Shown here piece after piece: positions 6,258 to 9,602 of a stretch of DNA of 39,180 nucleotides. A program made the translations under genes and the position numbers. Within the stretch, counting starts at the first letter, position 1. Each line of letters starts with the position of its first letter. Origin of the DNA: a virus. The stretch is taken from the IMG/VR virus record IMGVR_UViG_3300042891_000149, positions 1 through 39,180 of that record; one strand, 5' to 3'. The notes beneath the pieces are model-generated. The model did no database searches. It was not told the DNA's origin and saw nothing but the letters and a program-made list of their open reading frames with translations.

Positions 6258-6373
6258 TGAAGGCTCCTTTCGTTTCAGCACAATTCGGACAATCCAGTTA
6301 GTGCGTAGAAATGCCTTTACAGCCAAATTTTGATATGTAAAGGAGAAAAATAACATTAAAAAGGAGATAGTCA
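6258..6373. promoter_or_regulatory. Divergent control region with 30-bp dyad
   Basis: This is the only divergent intergenic region of the genome, so it should hold the promoters of both the leftward recombination operon and the rightward early genes. A perfect 8-bp inverted repeat, CCTTTACA (6314-6321) and TGTAAAGG (6336-6343), is separated by 14 AT-rich bases, giving arm centres 22 bp apart (about two helical turns). This fits an operator for a dimeric HTH regulator, probably the product of the next gene. I cannot place the -35 and -10 boxes with confidence. Confidence 0.6.
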
Positions 6374-6550
6374 GTGGTTGAAATAAACTGGATTAAAGAA
6401 GGGCTGTTAGATAGACGCCCAAAGGTTGTGGCGGAACGCACTGGTCTGCATGTCAACACCGTTACCCGCATAAGGGATGGTAAAGAAGAAAACCCCAAGA
6501 TCGACACGCTTAATAGGTTGGCGCGTTATCTGATCGGGGAAGGGGAATGA
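6374..6550 (+). CDS. Small HTH (XRE/Cro-like) DNA-binding protein, GTG start
   Basis: This 58-aa ORF starts at GTG with AAGGAG exactly 7 bases upstream and ends in an ATGA overlap with the methylase-like gene. The sequence has a compact helix-turn-helix pattern: PKVVAERTGLHVNTVTRIRDG, then NPKIDTLNRLARYL. The second and third helices (VVAERTGL, NTVTRIRDG) are the recognition unit of XRE/Cro-type proteins. It is the first rightward gene and sits beside the dyad at 6314-6343, so it most likely regulates the divergent early promoters in a Cro-like way. No CI-like partner with a cleavage or dimerisation domain is visible. Confidence 0.85.
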   Translation: MVEINWIKEGLLDRRPKVVAERTGLHVNTVTRIRDGKEENPKIDTLNRLARYLIGEGE

Positions 6551-7155
6551 AGGTGCTGGTCGCTTGCGAATATAGCGCAACTGTTCGTGATGCGTTCCGT
6601 GCCAAGGGGCATGACGCATGGTCTTGCGATCTGCTGCCCACTGATGGTGACCCGCAATGGCATATACAGGGTGACGCCCTTGTTATGGCGCACGGACATG
6701 ATTGGGACTTAATGATAGCCCACCCACCCTGCACCTATATGACGAACGCTGGGGTCACATGGTTGCATAAAGACCCAACACGTTGGGAAAAGCTGGATGA
6801 GGGCGCTGCCTTTTTCAAGGCTCTTTGGGATGCGCCAATCAAGCGCATTGCCATTGAGAACCCTGTCATGCACAAGTATGCCAAAGAGCGGATTGGTGGT
6901 ATGCAGCAGACCCAAACTATACAGCCGTATCAGTTTGGTCATTTGGAACAGAAGGCAACGTGCCTTTGGCTCAAGGGATTAATGCCTTTGCGTCCTACCA
7001 CCGATCTCAAGGCAGAGACAAAAGCGTTGCCTGATAATCAACGCCAACGGTTACACTATCTTCCGCCATCTGCCGACAGGTGGAAGTTACGCAGTACTAC
7101 TTTTAAGGGAATAGCATCAGCTATGGCTGACCAATGGGGATTTAATAATGGCTGA
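6547..7155 (+). CDS. Minimal C5-cytosine-methylase-like phage protein
   Basis: The 202-aa protein has the order of key motifs of C5 DNA methyltransferases in shortened form: an N-terminal VLVACEYSATVRDAF (motif I-like), a conserved DLLP, HPPCT with the candidate catalytic Cys62, and AIENP (104-106; motif VI-like). A large target-recognition domain is missing, and the C-terminus (YQFGHLEQKATCLWLKG, DRWKLRS) is that of a widespread phage family usually named DNA cytosine methyltransferase without proof. It may protect DNA from restriction, but activity is uncertain. It is coupled to the HTH gene by ATGA and overlaps the primase gene by 8 bases. Confidence 0.75.
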   Translation: MKVLVACEYSATVRDAFRAKGHDAWSCDLLPTDGDPQWHIQGDALVMAHGHDWDLMIAHPPCTYMTNAGVTWLHKDPTRWEKLDEGAAFFKALWDAPIKRIAIENPVMHKYAKERIGGMQQTQTIQPYQFGHLEQKATCLWLKGLMPLRPTTDLKAETKALPDNQRQRLHYLPPSADRWKLRSTTFKGIASAMADQWGFNNG

Positions 7156-9166
7156 TCTAACAAACATTCTGGGCGGCTCATGGTCACCGCCAGCAGAGAT
7201 TAAAGCAGACCCACCGGAACTACAGCTTCGTGACGCCATAGAGAATAGTGGCATGACAGCGCCAAAGGACATTGTCCTTGACGGCAAGATGCACCGCTTT
7301 AACTCTGGAACCAAAGGCAAGGGCGGACACGATAAGTCCGGCTGGTATATTGCCTATGGCGATGGTGTTCCCGCTGGCCGCTTCGGTTGCTGGAGGGCTG
7401 GCATGGAAATGACATGGAGGGCGGACGTTGGCCGTAAGCTAACGCCATCTGAAGAGATGGCAAATGTCCGGCGCATGTCAGAGGCCAAGGCCGCACGGGA
7501 CATCGAACTGGCTAAATCGCGAGAGGTGGCATCGAACACCGTCGAGAAGATTTGGTCAGAGGCCACCGCTGCCCATCCAGATCACCCGTATCTTTCCCGC
7601 AAAGGGATTGGCGTCAATGGCGCGAGGGTCACAGGCGACGGACGGCTGGTGGTTCCCCTGTTTAGTCCCAACGGCAAATTATCATCGCTGCAATACATAG
7701 ATCGTGAGGGCGGTAAGTTATACCACGCTGGCGGACAGACAGGCGGCTGTTCTTGGATGGTCGGCACAATGGACGAACCTGGGGTTGTATATGTGGCCGA
7801 AGGTTTTGCCACAGCAGCCACTATCCATCAGGTAACAGGTCGCCCATGCCTTGTGGCCTATTCTGCGTCCAACCTTGTGCCTGTTACTGGTGAGGCGCGG
7901 GACAAATACGGCCCAACCCAAGAAATCGTCATCGTTGCGGACAATGATGCGTCCAACACAGGTCAGAAGTATGCCGACCAAGCATCAGCCAAGTTTGGTG
8001 CGCGGACCATAATGCCACCCTTCCAGGGCGATGCGAACGACTATGTGGCGTCTGGGGGCGACTTGTCTGTCCTGCTGATTCCACCCGTTTCGGATTGGCT
8101 CATCCCAGCCGACGAATTCTGCACTAAGCCAGCCCCGATCAAGTGGATGGTCAAGAACTGGATACAGGATGATGCCCTTATCATGATCCACGGGCCGTCA
8201 GGCGGAGGCAAGACCTTCGTGGCGCTTGATTGGTGTCTGCACATTGCCTCCAAACTGACCAATTGGAACGGACACAGGGTCAAGAACGGCACGGTGGTCT
8301 ATCTGGCTGGTGAGGGACATCACGGTCTGCGTTCGCGTATATCAGCATGGAAACAGCATCACGGCGTATCCAGCGTCAATATGTGGCTGTCGAAGGCTGG
8401 CTGCGATCTGAACACGCCCGAAGGCTACATGAAGGTGGTTGAGGCCATCAGGGCGCTACCGCATCCGCCCAGTGTCATTGTGGTCGATACCCTGCACAGG
8501 TTCCTGTCCGGCGACGAGAACAGCGCACAGGATGCCAAAACAATGATCGATGCCTGTGCTGCGCTCATGCGTGAGTTCGGTTGCAGCATCATCCTTGTGC
8601 ATCACACTGGCGTGTCGGACGAGGCCCAGCACCGTGCGCGTGGATCGTCGGCATGGAAGGGCGCGTTGGAGATTGAGATTAGTGTTGTCCCAGCTAAGGG
8701 CGACGGACCTATCCAGATCGTCCAGCGCAAGTCCAAGGATGCTGAAGAGGCAAAGCCTGTCTATGCTGTACTGGAACTTGTACAGATCAATGGCTGGTTC
8801 GATGAGGACGGGGAGCAAGTTTCCAGTGCGGTTATAATGCAAACTGAGGCTCCGCCTGAGACACGCAAAGAGGCAAAGCACAAAAGCAACTTCAAGATAT
8901 TTGATGGCGCTTGGCATAAGGCTGGGTGCGAAGTCAGGGATGACATGCCTTACCTATCTCGCTCTGCCTTGATAGATCATATCATGAAAGAGGGCTTGGC
9001 TAAGAATGAAGATGCGGCAAAGAAAATGTGTCAGGAGAGCCAGACCAATAGGCTTATTGGTACGCTTGTTGTGAGCGAAATGGTGAGCAGACATGAGCAT
9101 GGTTGGGTGGTTATTTGTCCCGATAATGCCTCGTCCATGATGATTTCAAGAAGTGACTATAAATAG
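7148..9166 (+). CDS. Bifunctional primase-helicase (Toprim primase + RepA-like AAA helicase)
   Basis: The 672-aa protein joins three parts. Residues 1-130 form an N-terminal region with KSGWYIAYGDG and FGCWRAG, as in phage and plasmid primases. Around 160-300 is a Toprim primase core with VYVAEGFATA (Glu near 216) and IVIVADND (near 262). From about 330 comes a RecA-like helicase with Walker A HGPSGGGKT (348-356), Walker B VIVVDTLHRF (near 447) and ILVHHTG. The C-terminal 100 residues may be a winged helix. It should unwind and prime DNA at the replication fork. No polymerase gene is present, so host polymerase III is the likely partner. The adjacent repeat-rich gap may be its origin. Confidence 0.9.
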   Translation: MADLTNILGGSWSPPAEIKADPPELQLRDAIENSGMTAPKDIVLDGKMHRFNSGTKGKGGHDKSGWYIAYGDGVPAGRFGCWRAGMEMTWRADVGRKLTPSEEMANVRRMSEAKAARDIELAKSREVASNTVEKIWSEATAAHPDHPYLSRKGIGVNGARVTGDGRLVVPLFSPNGKLSSLQYIDREGGKLYHAGGQTGGCSWMVGTMDEPGVVYVAEGFATAATIHQVTGRPCLVAYSASNLVPVTGEARDKYGPTQEIVIVADNDASNTGQKYADQASAKFGARTIMPPFQGDANDYVASGGDLSVLLIPPVSDWLIPADEFCTKPAPIKWMVKNWIQDDALIMIHGPSGGGKTFVALDWCLHIASKLTNWNGHRVKNGTVVYLAGEGHHGLRSRISAWKQHHGVSSVNMWLSKAGCDLNTPEGYMKVVEAIRALPHPPSVIVVDTLHRFLSGDENSAQDAKTMIDACAALMREFGCSIILVHHTGVSDEAQHRARGSSAWKGALEIEISVVPAKGDGPIQIVQRKSKDAEEAKPVYAVLELVQINGWFDEDGEQVSSAVIMQTEAPPETRKEAKHKSNFKIFDGAWHKAGCEVRDDMPYLSRSALIDHIMKEGLAKNEDAAKKMCQESQTNRLIGTLVVSEMVSRHEHGWVVICPDNASSMMISRSDYK

Positions 9167-9301
9167 GGGGTGGACAAGGGTGGACAAGGGTGGACAAAAC
9201 AGAACTTGTCCACCTAAAGTGACGCTTTTCTGCGGGTTTTAAATAGGGGTGGACAATTAACTGGACAAGGTAGGGGCAAGGTAGGCAGTACTGGACAGAC
9301 A

Positions 9302-9327
9302 GGACAACACACCTATAGGTGTTGTCC
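9302..9327. repeat. Inverted repeat around a 14-bp perfect palindrome
   Basis: GGACAACAC (9302-9310) pairs with GTGTTGTCC (9319-9327). At the centre is a perfect palindrome, ACACCTATAGGTGT (9309-9322). It can form a hairpin or act as a symmetric protein-binding site. There is no following T-tract, so it is not an intrinsic terminator. Confidence 0.7.
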
Positions 9328-9362
9328 AATTGTCCACCTGTCCTGCGGGGTGTCCTGACCAC

Positions 9363-9391
9363 TTGTCATTGGACCTCTGGTAATATAGAAT
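9363..9391 (+). promoter_or_regulatory. Candidate sigma70-type promoter
   Basis: TTGTCA (9363-9368) and TAGAAT (9386-9391) are separated by 17 bases and lie about 20 bases before the start codon of the 9414 gene, after a long gene-free stretch. The match is only fair; the position is the main support. Confidence 0.35.
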
Positions 9392-9413
9392 TAGGTATGC
9401 GGAAAGGAAGATT

Positions 9414-9602
9414 ATGAGTAAGAGTAATGATGAGTCTTGTGGGCAGTGTTTGTTCTTTCAGGGAAGCCCTTCAGGCTCTCATGGATTTTGCAAACGGTTC
9501 CCTCCTGTGTTCACGAACATAGACAATGAAGGTCGAGCCAAGTTTTTCAATCCAGTGACCTCACCGTTCAATTGGTGTGGTGAGTTCGAGGACACAGACT
9601 GA
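9414..9602 (+). CDS. Small four-cysteine protein (62 aa)
   Basis: The ATG has AAAGGAAG about 4 bases upstream. The protein reads C-G-Q-C-L-F-F, then Cys after 13 residues followed by KRFPP, then Cys after 28 more in a FNWCGEFE end. This CxxC-C-C layout with the aromatic and Pro-Pro spacing is typical of small phage proteins that probably bind zinc or an Fe-S cluster. It resembles the 1871-2065 protein and the tail of the Cas4-like nuclease. It is coupled to the gpZ-like gene by a one-base overlap (TGATG). The function is unknown. Confidence 0.8.
   Translation: MSKSNDESCGQCLFFQGSPSGSHGFCKRFPPVFTNIDNEGRAKFFNPVTSPFNWCGEFEDTD

Follow-up and report, generated by a model that had tools for sequence, protein, structure and literature searches.

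Phage P4 couples its alpha protein, the helicase of which belongs to superfamily 3, to the iterons of ori and crr. RSF1010 (IncQ) employs RepA, RepB' and RepC together with iterons in oriV and the hairpins ssiA and ssiB as primase start (PMC4234260), and in pRN1, the primase-helicase ORF904 carries a C-terminal winged helix and the downstream origin contains a stem-loop that varies in sequence while its structure is kept (PMC4234260). For SaPI Rep and SCCmec Cch2, PMC7581432, which cites Ubeda et al. 2007, describes a helicase C-terminal domain that reads short repeats directly downstream of the gene. In the Vibrio cholerae PLE satellites, the DNA-binding domain of RepA and the origin covary and swap as a module, with escape from the Odn nuclease. 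Neither iteron origins nor recognition of the origin by a C-terminal domain is new, and the exchange of such modules has been described as well (PMC8263062 for PLE); we found no description of the repeat skeleton, word turnover, or helix coupling reported below in the open-access papers searched (subscription journals not covered).

The locus analyzed here lies in a complete IMG/VR record of 39,180 bases, hereafter the window, from a tailed phage; both terminase and tail genes are present. The gap of interest opens after the stop codon (9166) of a gene encoding 672 aa and extends to a small gene that begins at 9414. We consider it very likely that this gap is the phage replication origin and that its short repeats (words) are binding sites of the C-terminal winged helix of the primase-helicase encoded upstream, a reading reached without binding or replication data. 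The relevant features are as follows.

7148-9166, plus strand: primase-helicase gene, 672 aa, proposed initiator (Pfam, 1g8y match, AlphaFold)
8870-9163, plus strand: C-terminal winged-helix domain, residues 575-672, proposed word reader (AlphaFold; covariation with the word)
9008-9028, plus strand: predicted recognition helix, residues 621-627; K626 is the covarying position X
9171-9212, plus strand: first word block, with direct TGGACA at 9171, 9181 and 9191 and an inverted copy at 9207-9212; the order >>>< is common in relatives
9250-9267, plus strand: two more direct words (9250, 9262)
9273-9281, plus strand: conserved GGGGCAAGG element
9285-9346, no strand assigned: imperfect inverted repeat/hairpin, with the palindrome at 9309-9322 and a TATA loop at 9314-9317
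9351-9355, minus strand: outlying inverted core copy, TGTCC
9363-9391, plus strand: promoter-like TTGTCA-17-TAGAAT (consensus match only)

TGGACA occurs 30 times in the window, compared with 21 expected, and nine of these copies (six on the plus strand, three on the minus strand) fall within 9171-9336; any other 200-bp stretch holds at most two. In 20,000 random placements of 30 positions, the most crowded 170 bp contained five at most, against the nine observed in 166 bp. The initial annotation, made from the sequence alone, had reported six direct and at least three inverted copies in this gap at a density far above chance; the count and the clustering were both confirmed, and the motif is at chance level in the rest of the window, where that annotation had proposed checking its density. 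The true core of the repeats is GGACA/TGTCC rather than TGGACA, with 12 copies between 9172 and 9355. The 10-bp steps emphasized previously are exact at 9171, 9181 and 9191 but are not a conserved feature, because relatives often use 8 + 10. The 14-bp palindrome ACACCTATAGGTGT, also reported previously, is exact at 9309-9322 but is only the tip of the longer imperfect inverted repeat, which carries direct words in its left arm (9292, 9302) and inverted words in its right arm (9323, 9331, 9339) and folds as single-stranded DNA with z-scores of -3.1 (plus strand) and -4.4 (minus strand). The promoter-like site probably serves the gene at 9414, and no terminator-like sites were found. Just 3' of the putative origin, 9414-9602 encodes a small cysteine-containing protein (62 aa) that is kept in the nearest relatives and has weak matches to HiPIP (below cut-off) and PHROG 15838.

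The primase-helicase matches Toprim_3 (residues 214-304) and AAA_25 (residues 321-490, E = 2.6e-37) in Pfam, with no match to an SF3 (P4-type) helicase model, and its family profile retrieved one solved relative, RSF1010 RepA (1g8y; residues 322-501, E = 8.9e-06). Judging from these profile matches, the helicase part is AAA_25 of the RSF1010 RepA-like kind, and the domain make-up matches that of initiator-helicase-primase systems. The likeness to RSF1010 comprises a RepA-like hexameric helicase and, by inference for the window, iteron recognition and hairpins at the primase start, but RSF1010 uses three separate proteins, whereas the window encodes one fused polypeptide with a different primase domain. 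By analogy, the window enzyme could work like P4 alpha, yet it is not a member of the P4 alpha family: the helicase type is different, and in this phage group, one word replaces another beside the gene while the skeleton stays fixed. SaPI Rep and SCCmec Cch2 also belong to a different helicase family, and pRN1 ORF904 is distinguished by its archaeal-type primase, SF3 helicase, and lack of iterons. PLE comprises two replicon types with ~30-bp semi-palindromic iterons, in contrast to about 20 short words and in-place switching here.

The last 98 residues were modelled by AlphaFold as a winged helix (pLDDT 93) with the expected helices and wing. The nearest solved shapes are ArsR-type regulators and linker histones, with middling scores (VIA; Z up to 7.2); a Foldseek search against the PDB gave no match at E < 0.001, and no specific origin-binding relative is among the structural matches listed. 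That residues 621-627 form the recognition helix is read from the predicted fold and has not been shown. The gene that overlaps the primase start by 8 bp (6547-7155) is exchanged among near-identical phages, its versions being methyltransferase-like (202 aa), a 58-aa HTH protein, a DnaA-like domain, and PAPS-reductase-like. We rejected this gene as the word reader given that it is freely swapped while the word remains GGACA; between the readers suggested initially, the primase-helicase and HTH proteins, the former is therefore favored.

We collected 211 usable loci, of which 154 are distinct, by searching IMG/VR five times at the protein level and phage genomes once. Nearly all relatives carry a repeat array behind the gene, but the word differs, with about 20 kinds found (GGACA, GTAAC, GGAAC, GTACT, GTACA, GTTCA, GAAAC, CCCCT, GACCC, TACCC, and others). 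In 114 of 150 cases, no other 6-mer array in the locus is as dense as that in the gap right 3' of the gene, and exactly one array, located after the primase-helicase gene, is present in Salicola phage CGphi29, Idiomarinaceae phage 1N2-2, and Alteromonas phages PB15 and XX1924. The relatives have a skeleton that typically consists of words in the order >>><, (G)GGGCAA, words >> or >>>, a C-TWWA-G hairpin, and two inverted words (<<) often trailed by GATGCG. In 90 of the 144 distinct regions, GGCAA precedes the hairpin loop by 37-43 nt, and 103 of the 144 have stems of 4 bp or more capped by a TWWA loop, compared with 16 of 1380 control windows; nearly all these stems (101/103) are closed by a C-G pair, and their sequences vary among relatives while complementarity persists. 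No array was found within reach in L055, L056, L185, L276, and L150. The enzymes of L055 and L056 have an altered helix, QKRITDAIKPD, with no word array in the available stretch.

Using a tree built on residues 1-560, that is, leaving out the winged helix, and 20 word classes (partly hand-assigned), we inferred at least 39 word changes. In a comparison of the 47 closest different-word pairs with 53 same-word pairs, residues 616-635 differ in 60% of the former and 9% of the latter, whereas for regions of residues 1-570, the respective values are 11-17% and 5-8%. Different-word pairs are somewhat more distant (0.139 vs 0.059), which accounts for the rise in the background but not for the concentration at 616-635. 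Residue 626 is among the top covarying columns: Q, M or L accompanies GTAAC and V or T accompanies GGAAC in 62 of 62 cases, and all six independent pairs on well-supported branches agree with this rule (sign test, p = 0.031, the lowest value that six pairs permit). The motif IEN is present in all 14 CCCCT enzymes and in no GTAAC enzyme, and K626 pairs with GGACA in three lineages, the distant Salicola phage included. The relation between helix and word is not one-to-one, as T-Y-A/S at 626-628 is also found with GGACA (L398, L144) and enzymes with Q626 can have GTACT, GTACA, or GTACC as their word. On comparative grounds, we regard the conserved skeleton, the turnover of words, and their coupling to the helix as demonstrated.

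The coupling also held in blind tests. Four enzymes without an array in the adjacent gap have a helix that implied GTAAC (L212, L267, L269) or, with T626, GGAAC (L177); arrays of the implied words with the same skeleton were detected 220-920 bp further on, displaced by an inserted gene. The GTAAC hairpin DNA pattern was then run over IMG/VR with no protein used, and 107 of the 115 new loci have a matching winged-helix gene upstream. Residue 626 is Q or M in all 107 of these enzymes, compared with 40% across the family. Among the loci from this search, 79 share no 40-mer with earlier loci and correspond to 61 distinct domains, 58 with Q and three with M. No exact probability is claimed because the sequences are related. 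Potential hijackers, that is, origins without their own enzyme, were sought among the loci with the pattern. L331 and L388 were rejected on the strength of their AAA_25 genes alone, without alignment of their C-terminal helices with those of the family, and L390, L294, L314, L356, and L323 start too close to a contig end. In L371, no helicase gene was identified for the GTAAC hairpin array at about 8118, a possible origin without its own reader.

The GGACA hairpin pattern also retrieved AAA_25 genes with a PrimPol domain (L397, L398, L413) and AAA_25 genes without a recognized primase domain (L402, L405, L406). As AAA_25 genes with differing primase domains share the skeleton, the latter accompanies the helicase plus C-terminal domain rather than one primase type. 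Searches with the L034 protein found no relatives in bacterial genomes, and the GTAAC hairpin pattern was not found there either; plasmids gave only partial matches, none spanning 80% of the protein.

Words change by two routes, as pairs of closely related loci show. L194 (CCCCT) and L208 (GTAAC) have 100% identity until about 290 nt short of the stop. Across the winged helix and origin, identity falls mostly to 20-50%, and it recovers to 93-100% from 179 nt past the stop; this divergence confined between identical flanks implies exchange of a winged-helix-plus-origin cassette. L028 (GTAAC) and L035 (GGAAC) are 97-100% identical over most of the gene and the gene end, differing at 626 (Q/V) plus a few neighbors, and drop to 57-73% only in the origin, so the words changed in place, accompanied by substitutions at one or a few residues of the helix. 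Such near-identical intermediates (L028/L035, L179/L180, L194/L208) allow a direct comparison of single-residue change with whole-cassette exchange.

The gap was initially annotated as a candidate origin, and this assignment is supported by comparative evidence much stronger than its original basis. One hallmark of iteron origins is present: short direct repeats cluster beside a putative initiator gene and nowhere else in the genome. DnaA boxes and an AT-rich unwinding region are frequent in such origins but not found in all. Of the 144 relatives' regions, 65 contain exact DnaA boxes, compared with 0.018 expected per 360 nt, although the window has none, its own origin included. The gap is richer in AT than the genome in PB15 (63% vs 55%), XX1924 (60% vs 56%), CGphi29 (50% vs 44%), and 1N2-2 (54% vs 48%); the window's copy is at 50% vs 49% and has no AT-rich stretch. 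Cumulative GC skew, the check suggested originally, did not place the origin in the gap: the minimum is at 6295, a divergent-gene boundary 2.9 kb away. We discounted skew as origin evidence, this minimum marking a switch in gene direction; confounded in this way, it is uninformative on the origin. The origin assignment is supported by the DnaA boxes, one array per genome, position, domain content, and analogy to P4 alpha, RSF1010, SaPI Rep, and pRN1. Weighing against it are the absence of function data, the lack of an exact DnaA box and of an AT-rich stretch in the window's copy, the skew minimum outside the gap, and the few relatives without an array.

Other functions of the words have to be considered. 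As operators bound by the primase-helicase or by a repressor, they could serve to regulate transcription where early and late genes meet, given that the gap sits between the replication gene and downstream genes and contains a promoter-like site just before the next gene. However, no word overlaps that site, an inserted gene can shift the array by several hundred bp (L212, L267, L177), DnaA boxes are strongly enriched in the relatives' regions, and the proposed reader shares its polypeptide with a helicase and usually also with a primase, making transcriptional control improbable. The chance is slimmer still that the feature acts by base pairing, as a cruciform or a single-stranded DNA or RNA hairpin, with words changing only to preserve arm complementarity. 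Although the arms fold well (z of -3.1 to -4.9) and keep complementarity as the stem varies, the direct copies of the first block need not match the hairpin arms, coupling to residue 626 would have no reason, and an Rfam search gave no match.

We give almost no weight to host DnaA as the reader of the words as degenerate DnaA boxes (TTGTCCAC resembling TTATCCACA): TTGTCCA does resemble TTATCCA, and true DnaA boxes are nearby in relatives, but relatives with CCCCT or GGAAC words keep separate exact DnaA boxes alongside, and the word follows the phage protein, not the host. Terminase genes within about 5 kb downstream would fit a packaging signal (cos/pac), a possibility that is scarcely tenable when the word covaries with the primase C-terminus and a DNA search finds the skeleton behind AAA_25 helicase genes in very different contigs. 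A replication origin is, with high confidence though without function data, our preferred interpretation of the gap.

At such an origin, several protein copies would bind the words flanking the palindrome, AAA_25 (RepA-like) hexamers would load and open the DNA, and the exposed TWWA-loop hairpin would be the primase start or adjoin it, after which a host polymerase could take over. Binding, loading, priming, and the direction of replication are all inferred. A host polymerase is proposed because no other polymerase gene is annotated in four related complete genomes, the only such annotation being one small ORF in XX1924.

The matching of initiators and origins through change is poorly documented, and here, about 20 words are found on one conserved 670-aa enzyme, a co-change that provides a natural record of how replication proteins and start sites stay matched. 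We suggest tentatively, at somewhat less than even confidence, that the skeleton stays fixed while the word, akin to a password, is swapped repeatedly under diversifying pressure from origin exploiters (co-infecting relatives, satellites, origin-targeting defence), forming a readable natural code from one helix to a 5-6 bp word that is common to AAA_25 helicases with differing primase domains. That cross-use by co-infecting phages or parasites drives the turnover is a guess based on the PLE precedent. In practical terms, the DNA pattern alone can locate origins of uncultured phages, and orthogonal origin-initiator pairs become available for testing.

Two further sets of loci depart from the common pattern. 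L151-L155 encode near-identical enzymes with two C-terminal domains, neither resembling the common winged helix, and two words (ACCCCC and TGTTAG). L083 (about 3300), L108 (about 2745), L126, and L127 contain GGTTGGACA/GTTGGACA arrays near unrelated replication genes, that of L083 being VapE-like plus Toprim; the word arrangement may exist outside AAA_25 enzymes.
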